Of a stretch of DNA of 64,000 nucleotides, positions 12,504-31,630 are shown one piece after another. The number at the start of each line of letters is the position of its first letter. Position 1 is the stretch's first letter. A program made the position numbers and the translations under genes. This stretch comes from Ruegeria sp. A3M17 (GTDB taxonomy: Bacteria > Pseudomonadota > Alphaproteobacteria > Rhodobacterales > Rhodobacteraceae). The notes under the pieces are model-generated. The model was not told the DNA's origin. It made no database searches and saw nothing but the letters and a program-made list of their open reading frames with translations. The DNA lies in assembly GCF_003318255.1 (NCBI RefSeq), contig NZ_QOCF01000004.1, positions 124,001 to 188,000 on the forward strand, read 5' to 3'.

Positions 12504-13610
12504 TTAGTTAGATGCTGCGTTCAGCTTTTCGTTTTGTTCGCGAAGGGTGTCCGAGATAATCGCGTACCACTCGCCGGACTGACGCATTTCGTTCAGGCCC
12601 TTGTTCATCATCGCAATGTACTCACGTGCGAACGGGTTGGTGCGGTGTGCAAGAAAGCTCATCGAGGACAAGGTCGACACATAGGGGTTTTCGACCAGGT
12701 CAGTCGAAGTCAATCCCATGTCATTCATGGTCGAAGCGAACAGATCGACTTCAAACGCGGCGACATCCGCTGTGCCGGTCAGAACGGCATCAAGGCATTC
12801 GCGAGCAGAGTTAGGTTGGACCACATTGGTATTTTCGCGGTTCAGTCCGACTTCTTCCAGGACCACCATGCTCCAACCTGACATGCGGCAAATGGTTGAA
12901 CCTTCAAAGTCTTCGAACTTTGTCGCGCTTGCATAGTCGCTTTCAGGCAGAGTGAAGAAGCCACCTACGATGTCGTATACGGGGACAGAAGCCACGAATT
13001 GCGTACACCGCGCTTCAGTTTCGGACGACCATTCGTATGTGCGGTTCGTACAATCCGGGACGGTCCAGGCGATTGAAATATCGAACGCGCCCAGCGGCAA
13101 CAAAGTGTCCAGATGCGAGCTCCAGTCGTCGACAAAGCTGACGGAGTAATCGCGGCTGTTGCCAGCACGCTGAAGGCTGGTTGTTGCCAGACGGGTCATA
13201 ATACCGCCGCCACCCAGCGCTTCACTCGTGAAGGGTTCCCAACCGTTACCCGCCACCATTTTGATTGGCGGTGCATAGACATTTGATCGCTTGACGCTTG
13301 CCGCGCGTTGCTCTTCTGCTGCGATCAGTTCCTGCGCGGACTGACCGTTTGGCAGGCTACCATCCTCACAGGGCAAGGCCAGAACCAGGCCTGACTCAAG
13401 TGCATTTGGGTTGGTGATGATGTTGCGGTTTGCGTTAAAGATCGGCTGATAGTTCGACGTACCGTATGCTGCGATCGCAATGGTCGCCATCGTGTCGCCG
13501 TCCGCAACTGTATAATTGGTACAAGCTTCTTGCGCAGCGGCGGCGCCGGCGCTCAGAGCGGTAACGGCGGTGGCCGACAGTGCAACTTTCTTCAGGTTCA
13601 ATTCAAACAT
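12504..13610 (-). CDS. Secreted LysM plus solute-binding-domain protein (short form)
   Basis: 368 aa. A signal peptide (VALSATAVTALSAGAAAAQ) is followed by a LysM domain (about residues 30-75, YTVADGDTMATIA to GLVLALPC), a short linker, and a periplasmic binding-protein fold (about 110-365) resembling amino-acid-type family 3 proteins, with WSSHLDTLLPLGAFDIS and a C-terminal MNKGLNEMRQSGEWY. The ATG at 13610 is chosen over a GTG 6 nt upstream because GGAGGAA then has normal spacing. LysM suggests tethering to peptidoglycan. Paralogous to the adjacent gene. No ABC permease is nearby, so a sensing role is more likely than import. Last gene of the cluster. Confidence 0.82.
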   Translation of the reverse strand: MFELNLKKVALSATAVTALSAGAAAAQEACTNYTVADGDTMATIAIAAYGTSNYQPIFNANRNIITNPNALESGLVLALPCEDGSLPNGQSAQELIAAEEQRAASVKRSNVYAPPIKMVAGNGWEPFTSEALGGGGIMTRLATTSLQRAGNSRDYSVSFVDDWSSHLDTLLPLGAFDISIAWTVPDCTNRTYEWSSETEARCTQFVASVPVYDIVGGFFTLPESDYASATKFEDFEGSTICRMSGWSMVVLEEVGLNRENTNVVQPNSARECLDAVLTGTADVAAFEVDLFASTMNDMGLTSTDLVENPYVSTLSSMSFLAHRTNPFAREYIAMMNKGLNEMRQSGEWYAIISDTLREQNEKLNAASN

Positions 13611-13655
13611 GTCCACTTCCTCCAGACTTTTCTTCTAGTTAGGCCACATGGGGCC

Positions 13656-14918
13656 TTAGCCATTTTCCATTTGATGACGCAGAGCGGTTGAAACGATGTC
13701 TCGCCACTCTCCGGATTGCTGCATGATGTCCAAACCCTGATTGAGCGTCTCAAGGATCGCTTCCCCATCCGGATTATCTTTATGGGTCATGACGTTAAGC
13801 GACTTGATCGCCGCCAGATTGGGGTTTTCTACAATGCGGTGTTCGTACCCCAGCCGTCCAATTGCTTCGAAAGCCAGATGAGCTTCGATCGCGACGATAT
13901 CGGCTGTCCCGTTCATAAGCGCGTGAAAGCAATCATCGGGTGAAACTGGGCGCATTAGCGAGATCGCCGGTGCGTACAGTCCGACCGCGTCCATGTGCGA
14001 CAGCGACCAACCTTCGGGGCGACAGATTGTTGTCCCGGCAAAGTCCGCATAAGTCAGTGTTTGCTCATAGCCCGAGCCTTCGCGGGCAAAGAACGTGTCC
14101 ACAACTTCATAGAACGGGTTAGAGAAGTTGTATGTATCGCACCGCGCGCGGTCTTTTTCAGAAAGCGCCTCAGCATCTTCGCAGTTTGGACGCGACCAGG
14201 GGAAGGTGGCATCGAAAGCAAGTGTCGGCATCAAAAGGTCCAGATGCGACGACCAGTCGTTGACGAACTGGATCTTATAGGACTGTTCGGGCGCGGCGCG
14301 CAGCATCGCTGTTTCGACAAGGTAGGTGTAGAGCCCGCGATTGGGTAGGGCCTCGTCGGTGAAAGGCGCATAGTTACCGCCAGTGATAAGCAACAACTGA
14401 CGGTCGCGGATCTCCGGGCGTTCGCCGGCGTCTGCATTACGGATCAGCGCTGCGGCTTCTGCCCGCGCGGATTCGATCTCATCCTTGGCAGCCGATTTTG
14501 CAGCGATCACTGCATCTTCGCTTGCCTTTTTGGCTTCAGCTTCGGCTTCGGCAACGCGGGCTTCCGCCTCTGCGATGGCTTTCGCCGCGCGATTCTCGGC
14601 TGCCTTGACCAGCTCGGCTGCCATTTCGGCGGCCATAGCTTCGGCTTCAGTCTGCGGCACGGCCGGTGCACGCCCGATCTCTTCCAAACAAGGCATGCTC
14701 AGAACGTCGCCTACCCGAATGATGTTCGGATTGTTTCCGATCACGTCCCGGTTTGCATCGTAAATGATACGAAAGTCTTCGGTCGAATAAACTTCGATGG
14801 ATAACTCGCGCAGGCTGTCGCCGCGTTGAATTTCGTAGGTTGAGCATGCCTGTTGTGCCGAGGCGGTACCCGCAGCGGCAGCAAGTGCCAGGCTTGATAT
14901 GATCAGATGGTTTCTCAT
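13656..14918 (-). CDS. Secreted LysM, coiled-coil and solute-binding-domain protein (long form)
   Basis: 420 aa. Signal peptide (LIISSLALAAAAGTASAQ), LysM domain (about residues 24-77, YEIQRGDSLRELSIEVY to GDVLSMPC), an alanine/glutamate-rich predicted coiled coil (about 85-155), then a periplasmic binding fold (about 165-415) with FVNDWSSHLDLLMP, closely related to the short-form paralogue. The ATG at 14918 is taken because the signal peptide begins there. The helical spacer between peptidoglycan-binding and ligand-binding parts distinguishes it from its neighbour. It follows the phosphatase gene by 22 nt, so it is probably co-transcribed with the kinase module. Ligand unknown. Confidence 0.82.
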   Translation of the reverse strand: MRNHLIISSLALAAAAGTASAQQACSTYEIQRGDSLRELSIEVYSTEDFRIIYDANRDVIGNNPNIIRVGDVLSMPCLEEIGRAPAVPQTEAEAMAAEMAAELVKAAENRAAKAIAEAEARVAEAEAEAKKASEDAVIAAKSAAKDEIESARAEAAALIRNADAGERPEIRDRQLLLITGGNYAPFTDEALPNRGLYTYLVETAMLRAAPEQSYKIQFVNDWSSHLDLLMPTLAFDATFPWSRPNCEDAEALSEKDRARCDTYNFSNPFYEVVDTFFAREGSGYEQTLTYADFAGTTICRPEGWSLSHMDAVGLYAPAISLMRPVSPDDCFHALMNGTADIVAIEAHLAFEAIGRLGYEHRIVENPNLAAIKSLNVMTHKDNPDGEAILETLNQGLDIMQQSGEWRDIVSTALRHQMENG

Positions 14919-14940
14919 GGGTCCTGTTGCTTTGCCTTGT

Positions 14941-15726
14941 TTAGTTTTTTGTAAGTTTGACAACACCGATTGAGATGTTGTCCTGATCTGGGTCGCCCTT
15001 AGCGTTCAGCGCGGCCTGCAGCGCCCCGGCTATGTCTTGTGCAAGCCCGCTGGCATTGGATTGAAGAATGGACTGAATTTCAGCGTTGCTGAGATATTGG
15101 AGGCCGTCGCTTCCCAGAACCAAAACATCCGAAGGTGTCAGGTCCAGCGGGGTTTCCGGGCAATCGACCTTTGGAATTGCCGCACCCATGATGACCGAAG
15201 TCAGTTGGTTGCGGTCAGGATGCGCCAGGGCTTCGGCCTCGGTCAAAGTCCCTTCGGCCAATTGTGCATCAATCATAGGAGCCATCGAGTGATCTTCGTT
15301 GATCTGCGACAGCTCTCCGTCCCGGAACAGGTAAAGCGGGCTGTCGCCGATCGAAATCCAGAACAGCCGCTGGCCCAACAACAAAGTGCCCAACATGGTT
15401 GAGCCCATGTTGAATCCAGTACCTTGTTCCTCGGAATAACCGGCAATGGACGCATTGGCGTGCATTGCCGCAAGGGGCAACGCGTCGATCAATGCGGACT
15501 CGGGTGTCGTTGAACCTTCAAGCTCGGCATCTAACGCGTCACGCCAGGCCTGGATCACAAGGTCCGAGGCGACTTCACCTGCCGCATGCCCGCCCATGCC
15601 GTCAGCGACGACGACATAGCTTGCATTCGTCGCATCGAACATGCGCGAAGCAACCGCGTCCTCCTGCGTGTCACGCTGGCCCTTGTCCAGGATCAGCGCA
15701 ATATCATATGCCGGTGTCGCCAGCAT
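14941..15726 (-). CDS. PP2C-family Ser/Thr protein phosphatase
   Basis: 261 aa cytoplasmic phosphatase. The metal-binding PP2C motifs appear in order: RDTQEDA, VVADGMGGHAAGEVAS, GSTMLGTLLL, WISIGDSPLYLFRDG, LGSDGL and DQDNISIGV. It would reverse phosphorylation by the kinase encoded upstream in the same direction. It follows the FHA gene by 3 nt. Kinase, FHA and PP2C together resemble the PpkA-Fha-PppA switch of type VI secretion loci, but no T6SS structural gene is present here. Confidence 0.92.
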   Translation of the reverse strand: MLATPAYDIALILDKGQRDTQEDAVASRMFDATNASYVVVADGMGGHAAGEVASDLVIQAWRDALDAELEGSTTPESALIDALPLAAMHANASIAGYSEEQGTGFNMGSTMLGTLLLGQRLFWISIGDSPLYLFRDGELSQINEDHSMAPMIDAQLAEGTLTEAEALAHPDRNQLTSVIMGAAIPKVDCPETPLDLTPSDVLVLGSDGLQYLSNAEIQSILQSNASGLAQDIAGALQAALNAKGDPDQDNISIGVVKLTKN

Positions 15727-15729
15727 CTA

Positions 15730-16719
15730 TTAGGAATCCCGCCAGTCAAAGCCATCGTCACAGAAAGCGGCAAAGCGGACTGATGTTTCGCTGATGCGGA
15801 TCAGATCCCCGCTGGACAGTGGGACGGTGCTGAGGACCGGCTTGCCGTTCAGACGCACCAGGTTGGCCTTGCCGCCGTGTCCCAGATAACATTTGCGGTC
15901 CTCGGGATCATAGGCAATCACCGCATGGTTGCTGCGGGAAATGCCAGTGTCGCCAAAGTCCAGCTGAATGGCTTGATCGTCGTTGCGGCCAATCTGCATC
16001 AAGCCCTCGGTCAGCGTTACGCTCGCACCCCGGCCCGGACCGCCAGTGATGACCAGCCAACCAACCGGGAAAGACTGTTCGGCATTGTCTGTCTTGGCTG
16101 CAGGTTCTGCTGTCTCGATGAGGTCCTGCACATGCGTGTCGGCGCGTTCGAAACCCAGGAAGGTTGTCTTGACGCGACCACGACGATCTTCGGCAGCCGC
16201 GGGCTGCGGAACCGGTGCAACCTCAACCAGTGGTTCTTCGGCGACCGGTGCTTCTGGCACCGGTTCTGCGACGGGTTCGTCAGCGACAACCTCGATGATC
16301 TGTTCCGGCTCGGATTCCTCTACTTCAAGTACCTCGTGCTCGACAACCTCTTCGACTTCTTCCTCAACTGCCGAGTGCAGCGTCAACACGGTTTCTGCTT
16401 CGGGCGCAGGTACTTCGTCTGCCACGTCCTGAACTTCTGCGATAACTTCTGCGACGACGACATCATCTTCAGCCTCAGTTGCATCTGCTACGTCTTTCTC
16501 AGAGAATTCCGGCATTTTCTCTTCGGGAACCAACTCATCGGCTTCTTCGTAGCTGTCTGAGGACATATTACCGCCTGCCAGTGCCTCGCGAAGGGCATTG
16601 AAATCGGCGATCGGTTCGGCCTTTTCCGCCTCTGGCGCTACCGCTTCTTCGGCTTCGTTTTCTTTCGGTTTGCCGGCACCTTCGAGAAGCCGGCTAAGAG
16701 GGCTTTTGTATTTGAACAT
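15730..16719 (-). CDS. FHA-domain phosphothreonine-binding protein
   Basis: 329 aa. The N-terminal two-thirds (about residues 20-190) is acidic, Glu/Ala/Pro-rich and probably disordered. The C-terminal FHA domain (about 220-320) carries GLMQIGRNDD, the SRSNHAVI motif (the Ser/His pair of the FHA signature) and LNGKPV. The ATG at 16719 is chosen (MFKYKSPLSRLLEG); an upstream in-frame start has no support. Likely reads out phosphorylation by the adjacent kinase. The acidic tail resembles that of the GTPase at 24137, so these proteins may share a binding partner. Confidence 0.88.
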   Translation of the reverse strand: MFKYKSPLSRLLEGAGKPKENEAEEAVAPEAEKAEPIADFNALREALAGGNMSSDSYEEADELVPEEKMPEFSEKDVADATEAEDDVVVAEVIAEVQDVADEVPAPEAETVLTLHSAVEEEVEEVVEHEVLEVEESEPEQIIEVVADEPVAEPVPEAPVAEEPLVEVAPVPQPAAAEDRRGRVKTTFLGFERADTHVQDLIETAEPAAKTDNAEQSFPVGWLVITGGPGRGASVTLTEGLMQIGRNDDQAIQLDFGDTGISRSNHAVIAYDPEDRKCYLGHGGKANLVRLNGKPVLSTVPLSSGDLIRISETSVRFAAFCDDGFDWRDS

Positions 16720-16925
16720 GGTGTCGACACCTTTATTCCTTGGCACAGGACAACGGTCCTATGGGGCTGCTTCTTACCTCTGTGCGCGGTTGCACAACGG
16801 CACGGATGTTTGTGACAACAAGGTCACTTTCTATTTCCGCGACGGGCCGGTTCCCGTCAGGGGTGCCGAATTTGGCGCTACCCTCAGCAAATACATACTG
16901 GCAGATCACTTACGAACCGGTCAGA

Positions 16926-19088
16926 TCAATCCTGCGCTAATGGCATGTCAGCGTCCGTCTCGACGCCACTGCGTAAAACGCTGAAACGGGCCTGCGGCTG
17001 GTTTTCGGATACAAGCTTGGCCAACAAAGCATCCAGGCTTTCTGATTCCTCAATATTCGTTCCGGAATTTGCCTCTGAGACCAAGACATCTCCCTTTTGC
17101 AAGCTGCCCATAGTCTCAGGCGGAACTGCGGTTAGAACTGCTTTCCACCCTGCGCCGCCTGTGTTCTGAATTGTAAATACGTATCCGTTTTCCAGACCCA
17201 ACACGCGCATCGCGGGCAGTGCCAACAACCCGTTTTGAGGGCGGGTTTCACCCAATGTACGATACCGGGCAGAAACACGGATGTAGCCGTCCGGGTCCAC
17301 TTTCAGATCGTTCAGCACTTGTGCAGCAAAAGTCGATTCTGCCTGTACGGGTTTGCCGTTCAGAGTAAAGATCGTGGCACCACGCTTGACCCATTCACCT
17401 ACAATTGACGTGTCAAGATCCTGATCAACGCCGGTAATTGCAATCACGTTGCCGGTCGAAGCCCGACGTCGCGATGTTTGAAACGGAATCTCCACATCCC
17501 AATGCGAAAATGCGACCTGTTGTTCCATCAGGTTCACCGGTTCCGCCGGAACGAGCGGCGTCGGCTCGACGGTCGCGGCTTCAGCCGTTTCCGTCGCCGC
17601 AGCTTCTTCCTGCTCCGTGGCAACCGGATTTTCTTGCGCCTGCTCGACAGGCTCTGGAGTGGATGCGACCTCGGCCTGCGTGGGCTCTATTGGTTCTGGT
17701 GCCGGCTCCACTTCGGTTGCGGTCACTTGCTCGACCGGTTCCTGCTCGGATGTTTCGACTGTGGCCGTTTCTTCCACCGTTTCTGTCGCTACGGGCGCTT
17801 GCGTCGATGCAGTGTCTTCGGCCGGAGTTTCCTCACCAGGCATTAGGAAGAACCCGCCTGCCGCCAAAGCGGCGACCACGGCCACACCCGCAACAATTTT
17901 GCCTGCACCACTGGATCCGCTTTTGACCACGGTATCCACCGCGACCGGAACTTCATCCTTCGATGTGAACGTGGCGAGCCCGTCGTCGTTCTTGTCTTCA
18001 TTGCCCAGTGCAATGTCTGTGTTTCCGGCAAGCAATGCGGTGACAACGGCTTCGGCGTTTTCACTTTCAGCCTTGATCCGGGCCTTTTCTTCTGCTTCGT
18101 CTTTCTGGTCCATCGCCACGATCACCGACACCGGCCGGTAGTCAAAGCTGTCGAACATCACGCTGGGGCCACGGAACATGCGCAACCAGTCCAACGCGGT
18201 CTGCAGACGATCTGTCGCGTGAACTTCCATCGCCTTGTCGATGGCCTGCAGGAACCCGTTGGGATAGCCCTCAAAGCGCCCGGCCAGCGGTGTGTAGGGG
18301 TCTGTCTGACCATTGTTGAACGCGTTCAGGCGGGTTTGACCGTCGATCGGACGTTCGCCGCTGATGGCGTGATACAGTGTTGCCGCAAGAACATAGAGGT
18401 CACTGCTTGGCCCTTGTTCCGCGCCGCGTACATAAAACTCATGCGGCGAATACCCGTCCTTGATGACCCGCAGCGTCATCAGCGCAGCGGATTGGTGCGC
18501 AGCCTGTTCACGCGCAGCACCAAAGTCGATCAGGACCGGATCGCCATTTTCATCAATCAGGATATTGTCGGGCGAAATATCGCGGTGCAGCATGCCGCTT
18601 TGATGGATGAAAGACACCGCCGACAGCATTTTCTCGGTGACCTGAACGATAAAGTCAGGGCCAGCTTTGTTCTTGGAGTCCTCAACATAGTCCAGCAGAT
18701 CGCAGCCACGGATGAAATCCATCGCGATATAAGCGGTCTCGTTGTCTTCGAACACCTGATGAACGTCGACGATATTGGGGTGAACCAAGCGGGCGTGATT
18801 ACGTGCTTCAAGGATAAACAGGTCGATGATCGCGCGTAGATCGTCCTCGCAACCCGGCTCGCCCGGTTCAACCATATCGCCGTTACGGCGGCAAAGGGCA
18901 CCGGGATAGCACTCTTTGATCACAACTTCGCGTTCCAGACTGTCCCGCGCAAGATAGGTGATCCCAAATCCGCCATTGCTGATAAAGCGCAGGATCTCGT
19001 ACTGCCCGCGCAACAGCTTGGCGCCGGGTTGAAGACCTTCAATTTTCGGTTCGTCGTGCGTTTCGCCGACGGCCTGGTTGTGGCTCAT
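16926..19088 (-). CDS. Transmembrane Ser/Thr protein kinase with periplasmic C-terminal domain
   Basis: 720 aa. Cytoplasmic Hanks-type kinase domain at about residues 28-310: glycine loop NGGFGITY (38-45), catalytic lysine K58 in VVIKECYP, HRD at 168-170 in HRDISPDNIL, DFG at 188-190. A single membrane helix spans about 397-417 (VAGVAVVAALAAGGFFLMPG). Beyond it is a long Glu/Pro/Thr-rich stalk (about 420-520), then a folded C-terminus (525-715) with two PDZ-like segments (VKRGATIFTLNGKPV and LQKGDVLV). GGAAAGAA precedes the ATG. It probably heads the kinase-FHA-PP2C-LysM transcription unit and could link periplasmic sensing to the cytoplasmic GTPases. Confidence 0.92.
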   Translation of the reverse strand: MSHNQAVGETHDEPKIEGLQPGAKLLRGQYEILRFISNGGFGITYLARDSLEREVVIKECYPGALCRRNGDMVEPGEPGCEDDLRAIIDLFILEARNHARLVHPNIVDVHQVFEDNETAYIAMDFIRGCDLLDYVEDSKNKAGPDFIVQVTEKMLSAVSFIHQSGMLHRDISPDNILIDENGDPVLIDFGAAREQAAHQSAALMTLRVIKDGYSPHEFYVRGAEQGPSSDLYVLAATLYHAISGERPIDGQTRLNAFNNGQTDPYTPLAGRFEGYPNGFLQAIDKAMEVHATDRLQTALDWLRMFRGPSVMFDSFDYRPVSVIVAMDQKDEAEEKARIKAESENAEAVVTALLAGNTDIALGNEDKNDDGLATFTSKDEVPVAVDTVVKSGSSGAGKIVAGVAVVAALAAGGFFLMPGEETPAEDTASTQAPVATETVEETATVETSEQEPVEQVTATEVEPAPEPIEPTQAEVASTPEPVEQAQENPVATEQEEAAATETAEAATVEPTPLVPAEPVNLMEQQVAFSHWDVEIPFQTSRRRASTGNVIAITGVDQDLDTSIVGEWVKRGATIFTLNGKPVQAESTFAAQVLNDLKVDPDGYIRVSARYRTLGETRPQNGLLALPAMRVLGLENGYVFTIQNTGGAGWKAVLTAVPPETMGSLQKGDVLVSEANSGTNIEESESLDALLAKLVSENQPQARFSVLRSGVETDADMPLAQD

Positions 19089-19426
19089 TTCTTTCCGCCC
19101 GTTCTAATCGTTTTGCGGCTTACTTAACTGGGCTTTCAGCCCGCGAACTCACAACCAAACACAACCGCAGGACACTCATGTACGTTAGACGTTTCAAATT
19201 TGACTTTATTGGGGCCGCCTGATGGCTTCACTAAGAACCCAGCGCAAAGAAAATCTATATATGGTGACCTTGCCCATACGGAAATCTAAATGTTGATTTT
19301 TTAGCGGCATCACTTGCGGACTGAGTGTCTGTTTTCTGCGGATTGGTCACTAAATCCGAAACAATAAACGCGCGATTCTGAGGGCTTCGAATCGCTGCGT
19401 TGCGGCTCAATTAAAACGGGTAGGCA
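19089..19426. other. Non-coding gap between GTPase and kinase genes
   Basis: 338 bases without a credible gene on either strand. This is the only large gap inside the minus-strand cluster, so it probably holds the promoter of the kinase unit. A small inverted repeat GGGCT-ttc-AGCCC lies at 19130-19142, about 40 nt before the kinase start. No terminator with a T-run was found after the GTPase gene, so readthrough from the upstream unit is possible. Confidence 0.5.
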
Positions 19427-20713: not shown

Positions 20714-22752
20714 TCCGCAGCCTCTGCTAATTTCTTGTCGGCGCTATTGCCGCCGAATACCGCATCCAGATCATCGGCAACACGTTGCGCCTGATCGAAT
20801 GCTGCCTGTGCTTCTGCACGAACATTGGTTTGGCCGGTTCCGACCCGTAGTTCAAGATGTCCGGCCAACAATGCCAGATAATGGTCAAGAACGGTGTTCA
20901 GACGCTCAAGCAGATCGGCGCGCGCTGTGTCCACCAGATCGTCCCCGATCATTTCGAATTCCTGAACGATCATCCGCTCGGCCCGAGCGACCACACTTTT
21001 ACGCGAAATCAGACGGGACAGCCAGCTTACGCGCAATTCTACGGTAATGCCCCGCGTCAGTGCGGTGGTATCCGGGCGGAACCACCGAACCGCGCTGGTG
21101 TTCATCCGACTGTCGGTCGGGTCTTGCCAGCCGGGCAGGGCGCGAAGCGCCGCATTGCTGTTCATGTCGACGGCATAAAGTTCGCTCAGCATTCTCTGCC
21201 GCACCACTTGTGTTGCACCTTGAACCAGTTCGCGCATGCGATCCCGCAGCGGCGAAAAGTTCAATTCGGTGTCTCCGCCCTTGGCCAACAAGGGGGAATC
21301 GCCATTCGGTCCGCGGACAACGGCGGAAACGGCCTCGGATACAGTGTCATCCATGACGCCGCGAAGATTGGCCAACACATCATCCATATCGTCAATGATC
21401 TGTGTGGTTTTTTGCGAAACCAGCGCGCGCAGCTCGGCCAGTGTTTTGTCGTTTTCGTCGCCGTCGGTCATGTCGGCGGAGTTTTCGTCGTCAATTACGC
21501 GCAGATGGGCCTTGGACCGTTCCAGTTCACCTTGCGCAAAACTGTTAAGATGCTGCCAGGCCATCTTGAGCTGTTCGTCACGGGGCCCTTGGGTCAAGGC
21601 GTGCGTAACATGGCGGCGCAGATCGGGCAGACCCGAGGCGATCATTGCGGCAAAGCGCAAAACGCCCTCACGGCTGATTGGGCCGGGACCCTGTTTGATC
21701 TCTTCTACACCGTCCAGATATTGCCTCATCTGCTCGGGATGGGCGCGCAGCCAAGCCAGAACGTGATCGTGGTTCACGCCGGTATCGTCACCGGTTAAGG
21801 CATAATGGGCCCATTGGGCACTGCCCATCAGTACATCAATGTCCGAGTTGCCCAGGGCTTTTTCCAGGCCATCCAAAACGTCCGCCCGGACTTTTCCGGC
21901 ATCCTCGGCGCCACCGCCCAATTCGTCAACGCGGTTGATGAAGACGACGATCTGCCCCAGTTCCAGCGCCTGCATCAGGCGGAACAGCTTCAGATCCGCC
22001 CGCGACAAAGCCTGATGCGCGGACAATACAACAACAAAGAAATCGGATTCTTTGAGATATTGGCGCGAGATTTCTTCGCGGATCAACAGCGGGTCGTTGA
22101 CGCCGGGCGTATCCGTGACCGTCAGCGGGAACGGAAAATGGCCGATGTCAAAGTAGACCTCGGCCTTGCGTGTGATGTCACTATACAGTCCCCGATCTGA
22201 ACCGGGGTCGTATTCTTCGCTGTCGGTCGGATCGTCACCCGCACAAACATAACGGGCCAGATCGTCCGAGTTCAGATGCTCCAGATCGTGATGCTGACCC
22301 AGCAACTGCTCGTAGCTGTCGCCCAATCGCAGTTGGGCACGGGTTTTCATCGCGTCGACCTGCTCTTCGATCATCTCGCGCTTATAACTGTCCTCGTCAT
22401 CGGGGAACATGTTGCGCAGCTCTTCGCCCTCGGCGATCAGCGCCTGCCACTGACGGTTATCGAAGAAATGAAACTCCGCCCCTCGGGTTCGACCCGAGGG
22501 GTGACCGAAATGCATGTCGGTGATCACGGTCGTCCACGGATTAACATCCGAGGGCAGGTATTCGGCCTGCCCCGTAAACCCGTTGATAAGGCGGGACTTA
22601 CCAGCCTTGATCTGCCCGACAAATGCAATTGACGGTTTCAGATTTGATAGATCGCCTACAATGCGTGAAATAAACTGGCGGGTCTCGTCGTTGCTGACCC
22701 CGTTCATGTCTTCGGCGATTCGAATTAACTCACGACGGTTATTTTCACTCAT
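20710..22752 (-). CDS. Large dynamin-like GTPase (second pair)
   Basis: 680 aa. GTPase domain at about residues 40-300: P-loop GQIKAGKS (46-53), G2 threonines in NPWTTVIT, G3 DTPG (214-217), G4 NRVD (273-276). A long helical region follows, with a segment SWLSRLISRKS near residues 590-600 that could be a membrane-touching paddle. The P-loop, NPWT and G4 motifs match the other large GTPase at 25867, so the two are paralogues. The ATG at 22752 is chosen (CAGGG precedes it); a GTG 27 nt upstream is less likely. Bacterial dynamin-like proteins often work as pairs on membranes; membrane remodelling is inferred. Confidence 0.87.
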   Translation of the reverse strand: MSENNRRELIRIAEDMNGVSNDETRQFISRIVGDLSNLKPSIAFVGQIKAGKSRLINGFTGQAEYLPSDVNPWTTVITDMHFGHPSGRTRGAEFHFFDNRQWQALIAEGEELRNMFPDDEDSYKREMIEEQVDAMKTRAQLRLGDSYEQLLGQHHDLEHLNSDDLARYVCAGDDPTDSEEYDPGSDRGLYSDITRKAEVYFDIGHFPFPLTVTDTPGVNDPLLIREEISRQYLKESDFFVVVLSAHQALSRADLKLFRLMQALELGQIVVFINRVDELGGGAEDAGKVRADVLDGLEKALGNSDIDVLMGSAQWAHYALTGDDTGVNHDHVLAWLRAHPEQMRQYLDGVEEIKQGPGPISREGVLRFAAMIASGLPDLRRHVTHALTQGPRDEQLKMAWQHLNSFAQGELERSKAHLRVIDDENSADMTDGDENDKTLAELRALVSQKTTQIIDDMDDVLANLRGVMDDTVSEAVSAVVRGPNGDSPLLAKGGDTELNFSPLRDRMRELVQGATQVVRQRMLSELYAVDMNSNAALRALPGWQDPTDSRMNTSAVRWFRPDTTALTRGITVELRVSWLSRLISRKSVVARAERMIVQEFEMIGDDLVDTARADLLERLNTVLDHYLALLAGHLELRVGTGQTNVRAEAQAAFDQAQRVADDLDAVFGGNSADKKLAEAAE

Positions 22753-22818
22753 ACTGTTACCCTGGGTACTTGCAATCACAGATTGAAATAGTCGAAAAAT
22801 TGAATATTACGGGCGCTA

Positions 22819-23679
22819 TCATTCGGAACGCTCCGTCAGAGATGTCCACAGATTCACAATGGCGCCTAGCTTGCGCGCCTCGTGAACGACCATGGAGAAT
22901 TCCTTGCCGTCATTCAGGACGGCCAAACCAGAACCTTTACCGCCGGACGGACGTATGACGATCAGTTGCGGATGATCCAGCGCCGCGGCCGTGTCATCAT
23001 CCCAGCCCGACAAGTCACGCGCGAACTGCGCCAGCAAAGTTTGATCTGCCTGTAATGGCTGATCTTCACTACAATCGCCGTCAGACTGAACCATTTCCCC
23101 GCCTTCAGCTTTGACCTGGATGCGACCAACAGCCAAACGCTGGCTGCCAAGATAGAACTGGTTGGCCAAATCGCTGGTTTCGTCTGCTGGTTCCACGTCA
23201 TTTTCGGGCTCGGCAGAGTTCGGAACGACCGCTATGACGGGTTCAGCGGGCATTTCGATCATCGTGCAAGCACTAGCGATTTCGCTAAAAGTGATTCCGA
23301 CATCGTCCGCTTCCAGCGTGGCGTCCGGCCGCAGGGATATCAGGCTGAGCGGTGCAGGCGCGACGGCAATATCGGTTACCAGCTGCGCCAATTGACCCGC
23401 CAGCGTATCGCGCTCTTCGGTCTCAAAATCAGGCGCAACGCCGGACCGGACACGGAAGACATCAGTAACCCGAGAGCTATTGACCTCAATCGCAAGGCAA
23501 TCGCCATTGGCAGCCGTAAACTCTAACCGGCGCGGCAAAACAGTGCCACGGATGGACTGCAACACCTTTTCGCGACGCTCAAGCGCAGTGTCACCAGCAA
23601 GCGCGATGGCTGGTTCCAGCCGCGCGACCGATGATCGCCCAATATCCTCGAGCAAATCGAGTATGTTTGTATCCATCAT
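22819..23679 (-). CDS. Conserved-looking hypothetical protein of GTPase cluster (286 aa)
   Basis: 286 aa, no signal peptide or membrane helix, acidic (central PNSAEPENDVEPADETSD linker near residue 160). The N-terminal half (1-150) and C-terminal half (165-286) look like separate small alpha/beta domains; the latter includes LAQFARDLSGWDDDTA and GSGLAVLNDGKEFSMVVH. I do not recognise the family. GGGGG precedes the ATG at 23679. It lies between the roadblock-like gene and a large dynamin-like gene with short gaps, so it is probably an accessory or regulator of the GTPases. Confidence 0.7.
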   Translation of the reverse strand: MMDTNILDLLEDIGRSSVARLEPAIALAGDTALERREKVLQSIRGTVLPRRLEFTAANGDCLAIEVNSSRVTDVFRVRSGVAPDFETEERDTLAGQLAQLVTDIAVAPAPLSLISLRPDATLEADDVGITFSEIASACTMIEMPAEPVIAVVPNSAEPENDVEPADETSDLANQFYLGSQRLAVGRIQVKAEGGEMVQSDGDCSEDQPLQADQTLLAQFARDLSGWDDDTAAALDHPQLIVIRPSGGKGSGLAVLNDGKEFSMVVHEARKLGAIVNLWTSLTERSE

Positions 23680-23702
23680 GCCGTGACCCCCTCTGGTCCC
23701 GT

Positions 23703-24104
23703 CTAAACTGCAGCCGCGACGGGCCCCAAGCTGAGATGCGATTTTGTCAGTGCCAACCCTACATTCGCGCTGTTGCGACAGATGTAGCAGACCACATGAT
23801 CCGGATAGGCCTGCGTCCGCAAGAAAATGTTCAACCGATCCTTTGAAAACACCGCGATTTCCCCAAATCCCGGGTTTTCGGTATCAGCATTACCCGATTG
23901 CCGCAGCAATGCTTCAAAAGCACCCACGCCGCCACCCTGAAACAGGTTCGCCACTGCAAGCGCGAGACTGTCCAGCACTTCGGCGTCCTCTTGATCGTGG
24001 ACACTGGTCCCCAATAACATCCCTGTTTCCATGTCGATATACCCGGCTGCAACGCAGTCGGGTATCGTTTCCATCGCAGATTTCAGTGCGGCTTCGATAG
24101 ACAT
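23703..24104 (-). CDS. Roadblock/LC7-like protein
   Basis: 133 aa, the size of a single roadblock/LC7 domain. The pattern fits: a helix (EAALKSAMETIPDCVAAGYI), a strand pair with MLLGTSV, a long helix (DSLALAVANLFQG), then strands EIAVFSKDRLNIFLR and DHVVCYICRNSANVGLAL. Roadblock proteins act as regulators or scaffolds of small GTPases (MglB for MglA, conservon CvnB). Its place among four GTPase genes supports that role here. Assignment is by eye from fold pattern, not by alignment. Confidence 0.65.
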   Translation of the reverse strand: MSIEAALKSAMETIPDCVAAGYIDMETGMLLGTSVHDQEDAEVLDSLALAVANLFQGGGVGAFEALLRQSGNADTENPGFGEIAVFSKDRLNIFLRTQAYPDHVVCYICRNSANVGLALTKSHLSLGPVAAAV

Positions 24105-24136
24105 CGGGCTTCCCGTCCTTCTACCTTGGTTTCACG

Positions 24137-25858
24137 TTATAAAACATGCCATTCAGCCCCGCCCTTGTTCCCAGCTTTCGGAAGCGTTGAAACGTCTTTT
24201 TTTGCGTCGCGGGCGCCGTGTTCAGCGGCGATCTTGTCGAACTCTTCCAGGAAGGCCACAAAAACCTTTTTCAGGCCTTCTGAGTCTTCGGGAAGATCCT
24301 CACCAGCGGTGATCTCGCGCCACATCGCCGATGCGCTGAGTGTTGATCCGGCCTCCACATTCAGCAGTTGCTCAAGCGATCCAGACTCGGCCTCCGCCTC
24401 GGACGACGTGCCGTTCGGCATATGCACGATCTGTGTTTCCATCAGGCCGCTGGTTTCAGGTTCCGGTTCGAATTCATCCGCCGCACCATCCGATTGCTCG
24501 GCGAGCAAGGCGGCAATGGAGGAGACTGACACATCAGCGCTTTGCGCGTCTGCGCCGGGTTTGTCGGTCTCAACAGTTTCAGGCACGTCGGCCAGCTTGT
24601 CTCCAAGCGACGCCACAAAGGGATCCTGACCATCGGCGCTGAAGTCAGATTGCTCTGCTTCGGCTTCGACTTCGGCTTCCAGTTCCAGGGGCTCTTCTTC
24701 GTCGAAATCCTCGTCATCCAGTTCAAGAAACGCGTTTTCTTCCGAAGGGATCTCGGCAACATCCGCCAAATTCAGAGGCTGACTTGGCGTTTCCCGGAAG
24801 AAAGAGCGTAGTTCGTCCTGATCTGTTTCGGGCGTGGTCTCTTCCGAGATCGCGGTCATTTCGGCTCGCAACCGTTCGGCCTCATCCGCGTCAATGCGGG
24901 GTGCGCGTTCAGTGTCGCCAGAACGCGCCTCGACCCGGGCAGGACGGATCGGAAAACTCGTTACGACTTCGTCCTGCGGGTTTTCGTCCTGAACGGGATT
25001 GACCAGCTTTAGCGGAGCAGGCTGCTCTGCGCTCTCACCAGGTTTGCGTAGGCGGATAGGTTGCACACTGGGCATATGGGCAAGGCTGTTGTCGATCTGG
25101 TAACGCGCCAGCATGTCTGCTCGGTTGTCCATGATCTGTTCGGTGATCTCAAGAAAGCTGTCCACCATCTTGCCGCCGCCACTGCGTCCCCACATTTCGG
25201 CGTCGCCGCTCTTGTCGCGTGCGGTAATCGCATCGCGGGCAGAGAACAAAATCGATCGATTGAACAGATGCCCGGCCTCGCGGTTTACACGGCGCAACAC
25301 CTTCTGGCGGTCCTTCGTGCCCAGTGTATCCGCGCGGGTGACCAACAAAAGCGAGTTGTGTTGCAACCGTTCCGGCAGCGCGACCCATGTCGCCCGTTCG
25401 GTCTCGCGCCAAGCCTGGGTGGCGTGTGTGCACCACAGCACCCCATTGGCCTGACCCACGGCGCGACGCCAGACATCCGTTGAAATCTTGGGGTCCGAGA
25501 TGCCGGGCGTATCGATCAGATCGACCGCCTCGAGAATGTCGGATTCAAGAAAAATACGAACGAATTGGGCGTCGTTGACGCCGACAGACTCCAACGCATC
25601 CAATTCGATGTTTTCGCGTGTGCCGTCATGGCGCTGCACATACGCAGATTTCTTGCCCCAGCTGAACCAGACGGGCGGTAACTGGGTCGCAGTCACCTGA
25701 GTCGGCAGCGTGTGCGACCGAAGCAGAAAGTTGATCAGCGTGGATTTGCCAGCGCTGAACTCTCCCATAAGAGCAAAGATCGGCTTGCGGCGGGACCACT
25801 GCTCAATGCGTTCCCATGCTTTGGGCGAGACGAAACGGGTTTGTGAGTCTTTTGCCAT
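24137..25858 (-). CDS. Partner GTPase with long acidic C-terminal tail (first pair)
   Basis: 573 aa. GTPase domain at about residues 25-250: P-loop GEFSAGKST (32-40), G3 DTPG (116-119), G4 TRAD (174-177), plus AWRETER at 149-155 shared with the paralogue at 19427. From about residue 255 the chain is low-complexity; residues 370-500 are strongly acidic (DDEDFDEEEPLELEAEVEAE), ending in a short helical segment (530-550). The gap from the large dynamin-like gene is 8 nt. The tail may recruit partners such as the FHA or roadblock protein; this is speculation from composition only. Confidence 0.82.
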   Translation of the reverse strand: MAKDSQTRFVSPKAWERIEQWSRRKPIFALMGEFSAGKSTLINFLLRSHTLPTQVTATQLPPVWFSWGKKSAYVQRHDGTRENIELDALESVGVNDAQFVRIFLESDILEAVDLIDTPGISDPKISTDVWRRAVGQANGVLWCTHATQAWRETERATWVALPERLQHNSLLLVTRADTLGTKDRQKVLRRVNREAGHLFNRSILFSARDAITARDKSGDAEMWGRSGGGKMVDSFLEITEQIMDNRADMLARYQIDNSLAHMPSVQPIRLRKPGESAEQPAPLKLVNPVQDENPQDEVVTSFPIRPARVEARSGDTERAPRIDADEAERLRAEMTAISEETTPETDQDELRSFFRETPSQPLNLADVAEIPSEENAFLELDDEDFDEEEPLELEAEVEAEAEQSDFSADGQDPFVASLGDKLADVPETVETDKPGADAQSADVSVSSIAALLAEQSDGAADEFEPEPETSGLMETQIVHMPNGTSSEAEAESGSLEQLLNVEAGSTLSASAMWREITAGEDLPEDSEGLKKVFVAFLEEFDKIAAEHGARDAKKDVSTLPKAGNKGGAEWHVL

Positions 25859-25866
25859 ATCGCTAC

Positions 25867-27879
25867 TTATGCTGCCTCGTTACTAAGATCTTTCAGGATG
25901 TCGCCCAGAATATCGTCACGCGATTTCTGTGGTGTCAGTCCTGCCATCAGAGCTGCGTTGCGGCTTGGGTCATTCTCGGCCGATGCCGAAATGCTAAGCA
26001 ACGTCTCTTTCTGCTCGCGCATGAAATCCGACAGGATCGCGCGAACGTTTTCCAACACGGCTGCAACCTGATTTTCCTCGATATCCTTGGTGATCGAATT
26101 CGCCTCAGACGCGATCAGGCGCGTATAGTCTGCTGCATAAGCTTCGAACCCTTTGCGGCGTTGCCACCAGCGACGCCACCAGGTGCTTTGCAAGTCCAAT
26201 GCGATTGTTCGTCCAATTCCGAGTGGGGGTGGGACACGCGGAACAATGGGTGCTTCGATACTGAACTCACCCAGGTGGTTGCCCAGTATCTTTTGATACA
26301 GCGTCTCAATATCTGCGGCCGCCGTATTGTACAGCGCACCTGCTTCTTTGCGCATTGATCGCGCAAAGCTGAAATACGCGGCCTTTTGCAAGGTGCGCAG
26401 ACCTGCTGGGTCATACTGCCATGTGCCTTGTTCGCCGTTCAGCTCGAGGTGGGCAATCAGCGAATCCGTTGCACGTTTGACAAAGTTGGTTTCCGCTGAA
26501 TTTAGTCTCTCCAACACCTTCGCACGCAAGGATGCGGTCAGTTCAGCTACTTTCTTTTCGTATTGATCCGAGAGTGTGGCAATCGCTTCCTCTGGCGATA
26601 CACCATCCAGATCACGCACAAGACCTTCGCCGCCTGAAAGGGTCTTGGCAACAGCCGTGGCGCGGATTTGACTGGCGATATTGCGGGCGCGGTGGCGGAC
26701 GCGATCCAGCAAACGGGTGCCTGCGCCTTCGGCGATGCGCTCGTTCATGGCCAACAGCAAATCGGGCAGGCCGGACAGCGCCCAGATCTTGTCGAGCGAG
26801 GGCGCCTGATCACCAAAACCGGCAGCCAGATAGAACGTGTTCAACGCCTCGCGGGATTCATCGGACAGAATCTCGGGGTTGCCCGTCAACGCGGCCTCGG
26901 CCCACAAGGCGCTGCCAAAGACAACGCTGGTATTGGCATCGATATTGTTCTGCTTGAGCGTGTCCTGAATACGGTCACGGATTTCCGGGACCTGATTGAC
27001 CGGATCAGCCAATTCGTCAATTCGGTTCACAAACAGGATGATCTGCCGGTTCTCGAACTGGGCGATAATCCGCATCAGCGCCATGTCCATGGTTGTAAGC
27101 GCCTGGCTGGCAGCCAGAACAACAACGCAGACCTCAGATCCGCGCAAGCTGCGCAGGGTGATCTGTTCGCGGACCATAAAGGTATCGTTGACACCCGGCG
27201 TGTCGCACAGTTTGAGCGCAATCGGGTATTGCGGGATGTCCATGTACAGCTCTGCCGACTTCGTCACATCGGCGAACCGCCCGGTCTTGGGATTGATGTC
27301 CGGGTCTTCTTCGTCACCCAAACAGACATAGCGCTGAATCAGCTCTTCGTCGAAGTAATCATATTGATGGCTCTGCCCCAGAAACAGGTCGAAATGCTGG
27401 CCCAATCTGGATTCGGATTTAGCCTTCATCTCGCCGATTTGGCGGCGAATGTCATCCATCTCGTCATCGGCGCCGGCGCGGTTTGCCAGTTCACCCAGAC
27501 GGCCGCCGCCGACCATCAGGTTGTCCCATTCTTCTTGTTCAAAGAAAGTAAACTTGGCGCGTTTGTCGCCTTCGGTGCGGGTGTTGATATTCAGCGTGGT
27601 CACCACCGACGTCCATGGGTTTACATCCGATGGCAGCAGGGCAGGGCGCCCGGCCAAGATGTTCACAATCGAAGACTTGCCAGCCTTGACCTGCCCGACC
27701 ATCGTAACGCTGGCTGAGAAATTCTCCATCCGGGTCTTGAGCGTGGCAAGACGGGCGGACGAACGTGCATCCGCCACCTCTGTCAATTGATCAATCTGTG
27801 CGGTCAGTGAGTTCATCGCTGACGTCATAGGCGTCAGTGCCTCATTGCCAACTGACAAAAGATGGTCGTTGCGCGCCAT
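25867..27879 (-). CDS. Large dynamin-like GTPase (first pair)
   Basis: 670 aa. GTPase domain at about residues 55-310: P-loop GQVKAGKSS (62-70), G2 in NPWTSVVT, G3 DTPG (226-229), G4 NRID (285-288). Long helical regions follow. A tryptophan/arginine patch WWRRWWQRRK (567-576) next to a proline-rich turn is a strong candidate for a membrane-inserting paddle. GGAGG with 6-nt spacing precedes the ATG. It begins 2 nt after the upstream 134-aa gene. Family assignment is firm at the superfamily level; whether it tubulates or fuses membranes is unknown. Confidence 0.88.
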   Translation of the reverse strand: MARNDHLLSVGNEALTPMTSAMNSLTAQIDQLTEVADARSSARLATLKTRMENFSASVTMVGQVKAGKSSIVNILAGRPALLPSDVNPWTSVVTTLNINTRTEGDKRAKFTFFEQEEWDNLMVGGGRLGELANRAGADDEMDDIRRQIGEMKAKSESRLGQHFDLFLGQSHQYDYFDEELIQRYVCLGDEEDPDINPKTGRFADVTKSAELYMDIPQYPIALKLCDTPGVNDTFMVREQITLRSLRGSEVCVVVLAASQALTTMDMALMRIIAQFENRQIILFVNRIDELADPVNQVPEIRDRIQDTLKQNNIDANTSVVFGSALWAEAALTGNPEILSDESREALNTFYLAAGFGDQAPSLDKIWALSGLPDLLLAMNERIAEGAGTRLLDRVRHRARNIASQIRATAVAKTLSGGEGLVRDLDGVSPEEAIATLSDQYEKKVAELTASLRAKVLERLNSAETNFVKRATDSLIAHLELNGEQGTWQYDPAGLRTLQKAAYFSFARSMRKEAGALYNTAAADIETLYQKILGNHLGEFSIEAPIVPRVPPPLGIGRTIALDLQSTWWRRWWQRRKGFEAYAADYTRLIASEANSITKDIEENQVAAVLENVRAILSDFMREQKETLLSISASAENDPSRNAALMAGLTPQKSRDDILGDILKDLSNEAA

Positions 27880-27881
27880 GT

Positions 27882-28286
27882 TCAGCCTCCGGTTCCTGTC
27901 GCGGCCAACGTGTCAGTTGGCGTGCTGGTCATGGTGTCGATTCGGGCGATCAGATTCAGCGCATTGCCCAGGATCGCAGCTTCGGCCCCCGGCGAAATCG
28001 ATTCGAAGGTGTGGCAATCCGCCAAAACTTCGATCGAGCTGAAGCGCTCGCTGTTTTCAAGGCGGGCAAGACGACGCCCGGTCGGAAAGCCCTCGGATTT
28101 GGTTTCGGGCAGCGGCATACGCGAGTTTGCAAGCAAGTATCGCCGCCCCGAGCGCGTGCGCAACGATACGCCAAACCCTGTGTTCGGATGATCGCGGTTC
28201 AGGGATTTGAGTTCGCCAAGAAAACTTTCACGCGCAAGACCAACGGCTTCTTGCTCGGCGGCAGCGGAGTTCATCATATTGGTCAC
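27882..28286 (-). CDS. Small hypothetical protein, first gene of GTPase cluster
   Basis: 134 aa, soluble, no signal peptide. The start is taken as GTG at 28286 because AAGGG lies 8 nt upstream; ATG codons at 28277 and 28274 are alternatives without a good ribosome site. Visible segments: an alpha/beta stretch GFGVSLRTRSGRRYLLANSR, FSSIEVLADCHTFESI, and a C-terminal helix. I do not recognise the family. Only 2 nt separate it from the large dynamin-like gene, so it is almost certainly co-translated and functionally linked with it. Confidence 0.7.
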   Translation of the reverse strand: MTNMMNSAAAEQEAVGLARESFLGELKSLNRDHPNTGFGVSLRTRSGRRYLLANSRMPLPETKSEGFPTGRRLARLENSERFSSIEVLADCHTFESISPGAEAAILGNALNLIARIDTMTSTPTDTLAATGTGG

Positions 28287-28329: not shown

Positions 28330-28640
28330 AGCGCCCGAAGGCAAAAAAGACTCATTAACTCCTTCTGCCTATAAGCAGCTTTCAAGGCGGTCTTATTTTG
28401 ACGCGAATAAGATTTTTTGGCGTTTGAATTGTGTCGCAATTGTGTTTGGTGGCATTTTTCAACCACAACCTACGAGCGTATTTTCGTCATCAATGTAAAC
28501 AGCGTCATTTGCCGTTCGCAGCCTTCAAGAGCGGAATCTTAGCAACAATGCTCGCGCGAAAAATTGTTGGTGATGCATCTAGTATATTATTAATAAAACA
28601 AAAATACCTATCTCTTGAAATTAACCCAACACCAAATCCA

Positions 28641-29064: not shown

Positions 29065-29149
29065 GCGGGTGTGGCGAAATTGGTAGACGCACCAGATTTA
29101 GGTTCTGGCGCCGCAAGGCGTGGGGGTTCAAGTCCCTCCACCCGCACCA
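29065..29149 (+). tRNA. tRNA-Leu (anticodon UAG)
   Basis: 85 nt including an encoded CCA end. Acceptor arm GCGGGTG pairs with CACCCGC; D-arm contains AATTGGTAGACGC; anticodon stem CCAGA/TCTGG encloses loop TTTAGGT, giving anticodon TAG; a long class II variable arm (GCGCCGCAAGGCGT) and T-arm loop TTCAAGT follow. Reads CUN leucine codons. It stands alone. No repeat of its 3' end was noticed nearby that would mark an integrated element. Confidence 0.97.
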
Positions 29150-31517: not shown

Positions 31518-31548
31518 CTTCCGTAGCGTCGCAGTGGCAAATCATCGT

Positions 31549-31594
31549 TGACCAAGGTGGTCAGTGAATCATAAAAACAGAACAGTCGGTCTGT
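31549..31594. promoter_or_regulatory. Palindromes in TetR/AtuA-like divergent promoter
   Basis: A perfect inverted repeat TGACCA-agg-TGGTCA at 31549-31563 and a second shorter one, ACAG-tcggt-CTGT, at about 31582-31594. They lie in the 113-bp gap between the TetR and AtuA-like genes and are candidate TetR operators. The second contains the GACCGAC half-element (reverse strand) seen in several acyl-CoA-responsive TetR sites. Confidence 0.45.
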
Positions 31595-31630
31595 AAACTG
31601 CAGATCGCACCCAAGCGGGAGAGACGTGGC

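Follow-up and report, generated by a model that had tools for sequence, protein, structure and literature searches.

How bacteria time the action of their dynamins is, to our knowledge, hardly understood. Several dynamin-like genes stand together in LeoABC (also named Eleos), as in the locus described here. In the excerpt of PMC6104087 used here bacterial dynamins are described mostly as gene pairs; with two of these systems, Cj-DLP1/Cj-DLP2 of Campylobacter and BDLP1 of Nostoc, our locus has Dynamin_N G domains and adjoining dynamin-like genes in common. With MglA/MglB and the actinobacterial conservons it shares predicted MglB/roadblock folds beside GTPases; by the definition in the excerpt of PMC13343842, a conservon operon includes the sensor histidine kinase CvnA. 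The threonine phosphorylation pathway of type VI secretion (PpkA, PppA and Fha; PMC3953482, in excerpt) has in common a PpkA-like transmembrane kinase, a PP2C phosphatase and an FHA protein. The GlnH-GlnX-PknG-OdhI/GarA relay (PMC9769921, in excerpt) has in common a solute-binding protein, a Ser/Thr kinase and an FHA protein with a preceding threonine.

Organization of the locus

In the window, i.e. the whole stretch of 64,000 nt of Ruegeria sp. A3M17 DNA that was analysed, the twelve ORFs at 12504..28286 all lie on the minus strand; a preliminary description, which had reported twelve genes running the same way, is confirmed. They form two gene blocks, a GTPase block and a kinase block. The single larger gap of that description, 338 nt between g7 and g8, is present, but a second one of 179 nt separates the kinase gene g8 from the FHA gene g9; the other nine measure -26 to 39 nt. 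The family assignments made there held for Dynamin_N (four proteins), Pkinase, FHA and PP2C_2, all above the Pfam cut-off; in the two secreted proteins the matches to SBP_bac_3 (Pfam) and to LysM (NCBIfam) stay below the cut-offs of those models.

A 20-bp element stands, on the minus strand, upstream of the GTPase block (28416..28435) and of the kinase block (19185..19204). In 4.44 Mb exact matches to its pattern occur at these two block starts only, and the reversed control pattern gave 0 hits. The two exact hits are there by construction because the pattern was derived from both sites; what is informative is its absence elsewhere and its conservation in relatives. Neither a promoter nor a terminator came up in a simple scan of the 338-nt gap, and the sole Rfam match is a tRNA adjoining the cluster.

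The GTPase block

Dynamin_N matches above the Pfam cut-off (27) in the dynamin-like proteins g2 (25867..27879, 670 aa, 43.8 bits) and g6 (20710..22779, 689 aa, 50.3 bits), and in the small partner GTPases g3 (24137..25858, 40.7 bits) and g7 (19427..20713, 428 aa, 39.7 bits), the latter described also from its conservation. In g3 a G domain of about 250 aa precedes an acidic tail; the N-terminal part is conserved and the tail hardly so. An alignment of 20 dynamin rows (A1, made without the L045 pair) has invariant GQxKxGK, DTPGxND and NRxDE columns, i.e. the G1, G3 and G4 motifs by which the dynamin superfamily is recognized. The profile of alignment A2 (19 rows, A1 less L048) is closest in the PDB to 5owv (1.1e-15) and 2j68 (2.7e-12), which we take to be Campylobacter Cj-DLP1/Cj-DLP2 and Nostoc BDLP1 respectively. 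Judged by their sequences, g2 and g6 are dynamin-like GTPases that likely reshape membranes. The hydropathy of g2 just exceeds 1.6 once (KD 1.71), within its own G domain, and no signal peptide was seen on reading g2 and g6.

Structural models predict an MglB/roadblock fold for g4 (23703..24104, 133 aa) and for the C-terminal domain (residues 173-284) of g5 (22819..23679, 286 aa), a two-domain protein. The first had been presented as roadblock-like, which agrees with the predicted fold but not with Pfam: PF03259 has zero matches in g4, g5 or anywhere in the genome. We therefore call both roadblock-fold proteins and not family members. Compared with PDB sequences, the g4 profile gave four weak rows, with E between 1 and 4.3; Ragulator LAMTOR4 chains account for two of the four. 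Two genes had been described as orphans: for g5 the models now give a roadblock-fold domain, while g1 (27882..28286, 134 aa), the first gene of the block, has zero Pfam matches. Distant relatives of g1 stand before the dynamin in some other genera. The family alignments comprised 24 of 66 listed relatives plus g4, 17 of 49 plus g5, and 13 of 47 plus g1. A common ancestry of g1, g4 and g5 was considered and is unsupported by profile comparison; g4 and the end of g5 are alike in the models only. No single-domain MglA-like frame was found, the PF00025 (Arf-family) matches being confined to frames 839 and 347 aa long.

The kinase block

The protein g8 (16926..19088) matches Pkinase with 100.3 bits and has a clear hydrophobic segment at about residues 392-418 (KD 2.42, peak at residue 398), with a C-terminal part beyond the membrane; its description as a transmembrane Ser/Thr kinase is thus borne out. 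Its closest PDB kinase is PpkA (5hnv, 2.3e-41). The phosphatase g10 (14941..15726; PP2C_2, 49 bits) has PDB relatives that include PstP, Stp1 and, more weakly, PppA. By eye, the catalytic motifs of kinase and phosphatase are conserved.

The FHA domain of g9 (15730..16746) lies at residues 251-318 (34.3 bits). Before it stands T194, which is invariant in the 24 rows of the FHA alignment (23 of 32 relatives plus g9), the surrounding motif being present in 23 of the 24. This sequence context marks T194 as a candidate phosphorylation site of the type that precedes the FHA domain in OdhI/GarA. In the PDB the FHA profile matches no chains other than those of GarA/Rv1827 and Mb1858. The scores for the NCBIfam models OdhI (20.5 of 200 bits) and FhaB (29.9 of 125 bits) lie far below their cut-offs.

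The last two genes, g11 (13656..14966) and g12 (12504..13616), are described as secreted LysM and solute-binding proteins from sub-cut-off models and from signal peptides assigned by eye. SBP_bac_3 scores 20.3 and 13.8 bits respectively (cut-off 26.4). For LysM, the E-values with NF008399 are 9.4e-6 and 3e-9, with neither match coming close to the model cut-off, in an NCBIfam search that covered ten of the twelve proteins (all except g1 and g4). The match of g12 to the PDB LysM protein Kbp has E 5.1e-5. As a putative solute-binding protein g12 has a weak match of its own (E 0.051), backed by its likeness to g11.

Conservation across genomes

Among 148 genomes of the order, 59 have a dynamin match, 58 an FHA match and 55 both, which is more than chance would give (Fisher 7e-32, uncorrected for shared ancestry). 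In 53 of these 55, from 21 genera, they lie within 5 kb of each other. The module is present in 8 of 8 same-genus genomes sampled, the A3M17 genome included. The preliminary description had joined periplasmic parts, a phospho-switch and dynamin-type GTPases into one system and had named a lack of joint conservation as evidence against it; the parts prove to be a conserved unit, kept side by side in Ruegeria and in many members of its family. Nor did a system of this composition emerge from the searches of open-access papers. There are exceptions on both sides: FHA is found without a dynamin match in 3 of 58 genomes (G009, G060 and G132), dynamin without an FHA match in 4 of 59, and 13 of 69 FHA matches are not near a dynamin match.

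The set that recurs across genera consists of a single dynamin together with two small GTPases, two proteins of roadblock type, kinase, FHA and PP2C. The dynamin g6 is an extra copy in the Ruegeria lineage: we saw a second dynamin beside the module in Ruegeria, in Roseovarius albus and in Aliiroseovarius, whereas of the 51 genomes outside the genus that bear a dynamin, 37 match it only once. The earlier proposal of two membrane-GTPase pairs joined to sensing and a phospho-switch therefore stands for the combination but not for the doubling of the pairs, which is not part of the recurrent core.

The order of the blocks varies, but they remain neighbours. In Ruegeria and Frigidibacter the kinase block shares the strand of the GTPase block and follows it; it is on the opposite strand in Actibacterium (L099) and Defluviimonas (L101, L102 and L107), and precedes the GTPase block in Roseovarius aestuarii (L114), Boseongicola, Yoonia and others. 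One genome (G057) has two kinase blocks close to GTPase-roadblock-roadblock trios that lack a dynamin, its dynamins being on another contig; there the kinase block thus stays with the small-GTPase/roadblock unit. Kinase-free versions exist among 111 loci (10 with single dynamin-GTPase pairs and 4 with doubled pairs, some on short contigs), so that dynamins and partner GTPases can work without the kinase relay. Most of the 111 loci were anchored on dynamin; the FHA-anchored survey, which underlies the co-occurrence and adjacency counts above, is the better test. The full twelve-gene order occurs in 5 loci besides the window (L038-L041 and L138), many Ruegeria loci ending before PP2C and the binding proteins. 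The latter were seen in only 13 of the 86 loci that have any gene of the kinase block. Many loci stop short of their position, but those with the order kinase-FHA-PP2C-GTPb-Dyn show none. The gene-order profiles were built partly from the same loci, hence member rows match by construction; one set of relative loci was the best 80 of at least 492, another was 20 stretches picked from a longer list.

A possible control chain for the dynamins

Our preferred reading, to which we give a little less than an even chance, is that in this conserved two-block module the kinase-FHA-phosphatase relay controls the small GTPases and the predicted MglB-fold proteins, which would drive dynamins at the inner membrane. 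What the sequences show are the families of the genes, their linkage in relatives, a conserved threonine ahead of the FHA domain and an element common to both block starts; the two roadblock folds are predictions of models. The trios of G057, the likeness of the kinase to PpkA and of the FHA domain to GarA, and the lack of an MglA-like frame also speak for this reading. Against it count the exceptions to co-occurrence, the kinase-free versions, the scarcity of binding proteins and the missing Pfam roadblock match of g4 and g5. LysM parts would anchor g11 and g12 at the peptidoglycan, from where a ligand, perhaps an amino acid or a wall fragment, would be reported to the outer part of g8. The kinase would then phosphorylate T194 of g9, and g10 would reverse this. 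As in OdhI/GarA, the phosphorylation might cause the FHA domain to engage either the tail of g9 itself or a partner, so that the g3/g4/g5/g7 unit would be released or recruited. GTP hydrolysis by g3 and g7 may be regulated by g4 and g5, which we assign to these small GTPases because an MglA for them was not found. The GTP-loaded unit would finally recruit the dynamins g2 and g6, which would then tether or seal the inner membrane, most likely when the envelope has been damaged; this last role is the weakest part of the chain.

The conserved trio of kinase, phosphatase and FHA, with PpkA as the closest solved kinase of g8, could also be a type VI secretion phosphorylation pathway, relic or stand-alone. 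We consider this very improbable and rejected it: VipB, the sole marker used, occurs in 19 of the 55 genomes with FHA and dynamin but is absent from the other 36 and from the A3M17 genome, and its enrichment with the module is not significant (19/55 vs 21/93, p 0.13). A nutrient relay of the GlnH-GlnX-PknG-OdhI type, in which proteins that bind amino acids would control the kinase and the FHA protein would tune metabolism, with the GTPases as a second output, is unlikely. The types of parts are those of Corynebacterium (excerpt of PMC9769921), the PDB matches of the FHA profile are confined to GarA-type chains, and both Ruegeria and Litoreibacter (L130) have a gene for isocitrate dehydrogenase close to the cluster. 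But this neighbour may be plain synteny, the scores are far below the OdhI and FhaB cut-offs, the loci with the kinase-FHA-PP2C-GTPb-Dyn order show no binding protein, and the tight linkage is to GTPases.

Outer-membrane vesicles, cell division, envelope stress and phage defence had been named in the preliminary description as roles that the cluster could govern, and all are still candidates only. It is quite unlikely that the module is an anti-phage or lysis-delay system, with a kinase that senses infection and dynamins that seal the membrane like Bacillus DynA, which delays phage lysis (PMC8844932, in excerpt). PADLOC, applied to g1 to g10, gave partial matches to PD-T4-6 kinase models and to LeoA/LeoBC models, the best of the latter with 40.8 bits and no stated cut-off, and the DNA beyond tRNA-Leu varies between Ruegeria strains. 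But any Ser/Thr kinase is expected to match kinase models, all eight same-genus genomes have the module, and its GC is like that of its surroundings (0.563 for the cluster, 0.561 for the window). Zero relatives of g2 in 50,697 phage records argue against this system and leave a phage-borne one unsupported. We are equally doubtful of a cell-division or vesicle machine with constitutive dynamins on whose timing the kinase acts, for which the excerpted sources offer precedents: Streptomyces DynA/DynB act in cytokinesis (PMC6104087) and LeoABC is linked to vesicle release (PMC4159319). However, 89 of 148 genomes of the order have no dynamin at the cut-off used, which therefore is not a basic division part there, and the dynamins have no visible signal peptide, which agrees poorly with a role in budding outer-membrane vesicles off from the periplasm.

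Comparison with known systems

Returning to relay control of the dynamins through the small-GTPase unit, the module is quite possibly a new signalling machine: a periplasm-sensing Ser/Thr switch (binding protein, PpkA-like kinase, GarA-like FHA and PP2C) would gate dynamins via small GTPases held by two MglB-fold regulators, one of them hidden as an orphan. This candidate control chain adjoins dynamins over 21 genera and through several rearrangements, and would join bacterial dynamins, MglB-type GTPase control and eukaryotic-like phosphorylation.

Each known system differs in some part. The twelve proteins have no histidine-kinase Pfam match and hence no CvnA as in the definition of conservons. 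Where MglB has MglA, no MglA-like frame was found, and the GTPases here are dynamin-type. The type VI pathway belongs to a secretion system whose VipB this genome lacks. In contrast to GlnH-GlnX-PknG-OdhI, the kinase is itself transmembrane, the binding proteins carry LysM and GTPases are attached. LeoA is periplasmic according to the excerpt of PMC4159319, whereas the Ruegeria dynamins show no signal peptide, and neither a kinase nor a roadblock gene is among the LeoABC components which that excerpt describes. Compared with Cj-DLP1/Cj-DLP2 and BDLP1, finally, the Ruegeria dynamins have short GTPases as partners, and proteins of roadblock type and a kinase relay stand alongside.

Gene cluster and flanks

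The minus strand carries twelve open reading frames (g1–g12) between 28286 and 12504; with their Pfam matches they bear out the twelve same-strand genes of the preliminary description. Dynamin_N in g2, g3, g6 and g7, Pkinase in g8, FHA in g9 and PP2C_2 in g10 score above cut-off; SBP_bac_3 in g11 and g12 is sub-threshold. Two intergenic gaps stand out, at 338 nt (g7-g8) and 179 nt (g8-g9), the others lying between -26 and 39 nt. The announced 338-nt gap is present but is not the only one. The GC content of the cluster (0.563 vs 0.561 for the window) is the same as that of its surroundings. In g3 (24137-25858, minus) a long, poorly conserved acidic tail follows the G domain.

A tRNA-Leu gene (29065-29149, plus) lies just upstream, and on that side of the cluster in six of eight relatives (L138, L060, L061, L065, L067 and L070; not L089 and L091). 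Past it gene content varies between strains, and this flank is possibly an old integration border. The genes at 29728-35034 (acyl-CoA dehydrogenase, TetR, AtuA, carboxyl transferase) look like a terpene/leucine-type degradation cluster. A monomeric isocitrate dehydrogenase gene (10013-12226, plus) is also found near the cluster in Ruegeria loci L039, L041 and L138, and in Litoreibacter L130 (1461-3674), where the arrangement is different.

Dynamin and FHA genes occur together

A single set of 148 genomes drawn from the order, all listed rows of which belong to one family by the tool's label, was searched with both a dynamin and an FHA alignment. They matched in 59 and 58 genomes respectively: both in 55, dynamin only in 4 and FHA only in 3 (Fisher p 7e-32, shared ancestry ignored). 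In 53 of the 55, from 21 genera, the two lie on one contig at most 5 kb apart (maximum 4,920 bp), i.e. the genes are conserved together, the point on which the preliminary description had made the cluster depend. Of 69 FHA hits, 56 are adjacent to a dynamin match and 13 are not. The two exceptions among the 55 genomes are G080, whose 7.2-kb contig stops with the FHA frame and so cuts off the adjacency test, and G057, whose dynamins are on another contig than its two kinase blocks, each of which lies close to a GTPase-roadblock-roadblock trio. In two of the FHA-only genomes, G060 and G132, the kinase, FHA and PP2C genes sit side by side and no GTPase accompanies them; the third, G009, has a kinase-like frame several kb off on the opposite strand.

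Gene orders were read by profile searches in 111 loci, taken from named genomes (best 80 of 492, of which Ruegeria loci are the closest) and further picks. The order g1, dynamin, small GTPase, two roadblock-type genes (g4- and g5-type), dynamin, small GTPase, kinase, FHA is found in 40 loci, the examined stretch stopping after FHA; all twelve genes are visible in 5. Frigidibacter L105 and L106 have a similar order, with the second dynamin absent and g1 not detected. The kinase block is on the opposite strand in Actibacterium L099 and Defluviimonas L101, L102 and L107, and comes first in Roseovarius aestuarii L114. Twelve loci, including Boseongicola L120 and Yoonia L124, read kinase-FHA-PP2C-GTPase-dynamin-GTPase and the two roadblock-type genes, without binding proteins. 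There are also dynamin-GTPase pairs that lack a kinase, 10 loci having a single pair and 4 a doubled one; some of these loci are on short contigs.

In the 86 loci with any kinase-block gene, mostly chosen by their dynamin, we found dynamin in 80, small GTPase in 82, and g4- and g5-type genes in 80 and 78. The recurring core, as read from sequence, is kinase, FHA, PP2C, one dynamin, two small GTPases and two predicted roadblock-type proteins. The linkage of dynamins with a kinase set holds, but the second dynamin is not part of this core: 37 of 51 genomes outside the genus have a single dynamin match. The genes stay together through four or more arrangements, which speaks for function and against drift.

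The tandem doubled pairs of L042-L045 have no detected roadblock gene, and in several of them small conserved unnamed neighbours (families 9 and 12). L159 (G094:C5) has a 988-aa open frame that matches dynamin next to a small-GTPase gene, with no kinase block in the 20 kb examined.

Distribution

A class draw yielded the dynamin subfamily in 2 of 289 genomes, both of the host's family, and a phylum draw in 9 of 398 (8 of that family and G751, another member of the class, with a dynamin-GTPase pair only); the first look passes few candidates per genome, so that distant forms may be missed. Relatives of g2 occur in 18 of 72,556 plasmid records: five Ruegeria replicons (389-811 kb), twelve Leisingera records (33-179 kb) and one of Rhodobacter. 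Gene content was examined in three: Ruegeria AD91A carries all twelve genes in order, Leisingera H8 the kinase-FHA-PP2C version, and Rhodobacter four dynamin-family genes in a row, with no Ser/Thr kinase in the stretch viewed. Phage records searched with g2 gave no match.

A shared upstream element

The g7-g8 gap, 327-358 nt long in 48 sequences, contains a conserved block, as does the region ahead of g1. Common to both blocks is the 20-mer GNCAMAWTTSAAACGYCWAA (19185-19204 and 28416-28435). These are its only exact matches in the 4.44-Mb genome (reversed control pattern: 0), although the pattern was written from the two sites and their matches are not independent evidence; its weight comes from conservation in relatives and absence elsewhere in the genome. 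One more genomic site has two mismatches (G000:C8:491323-491342). With up to three mismatches the window has 3 matches vs 0.39 expected, a number reached by 1 of 100 shuffles. Of 147 loci, overlapping ones counted, 23 carry two copies of a stricter form and 15 carry one; Aliiroseovarius shows a weaker resemblance, judged by eye. The shared 20-mer suggests that the two gene blocks are co-regulated.

A proposed kinase-FHA-phosphatase switch

The top PDB match of the g8 kinase is PpkA (2.3e-41), far ahead of PknB (3.4e-23). The FHA profile matched only four PDB sequences, GarA/Rv1827 and Mb1858 (9e-5 to 1.7e-4). T194 is invariant in 24 FHA proteins, within R(V/T)KT(T/R)(L/F)LGF, a motif strict in 23 and looser in the remaining one; ahead of it conservation is poor, and the Pfam FHA domain begins 57 residues further on. 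The FHA domain of GarA/OdhI binds a threonine that precedes it once this residue is phosphorylated. Published work names Thr14 in OdhI (PMC2784874), describes a Corynebacterium GlnH-GlnX-PknG-OdhI chain starting with a periplasmic binding protein (PMC9769921), and reports that in Agrobacterium TssL phosphorylation requires PpkA and Fha binds the TssL phosphothreonine (PMC3953482).

Discussion

We propose that LysM-anchored binding proteins would signal to kinase g8, that kinase and PP2C would jointly determine the state of the FHA switch, and that this switch would act on the small GTPases, whose GTP state the roadblock pair would set, the dynamins being the membrane output. Judging by the layout of G057, the kinase block would partner the small-GTPase/roadblock unit directly, and not the dynamin. 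No MglA was found to account for the roadblock-type proteins. No signal peptide was seen in the dynamins; most have a Trp-rich stretch near the C-terminus (consensus LDLQxxWWKxWW, from which g6 differs), a possible membrane-contact site. We favour a role in responding to envelope damage, which agrees with the membrane repair speculated for Cj-DLP1/2 and Bacillus DynA (PMC6104087, PMC8844932). We infer the whole scheme, from sensing to dynamin output, together with this role.

With PADLOC, genes g1 to g10 give only partial matches to LeoA/LeoBC and only generic kinase matches. In text searches of open-access papers this gene combination was not found described, nor was a published system of exactly this composition, the other outcome that would have spoken against the preliminary description; the related papers listed mostly concern MglB, roadblock proteins and conservons and, separately, dynamins at large. 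The module belongs with bacterial dynamin gene sets, for which its control layer was not found described in open-access papers; proof of the wiring would make it a new kind of system.
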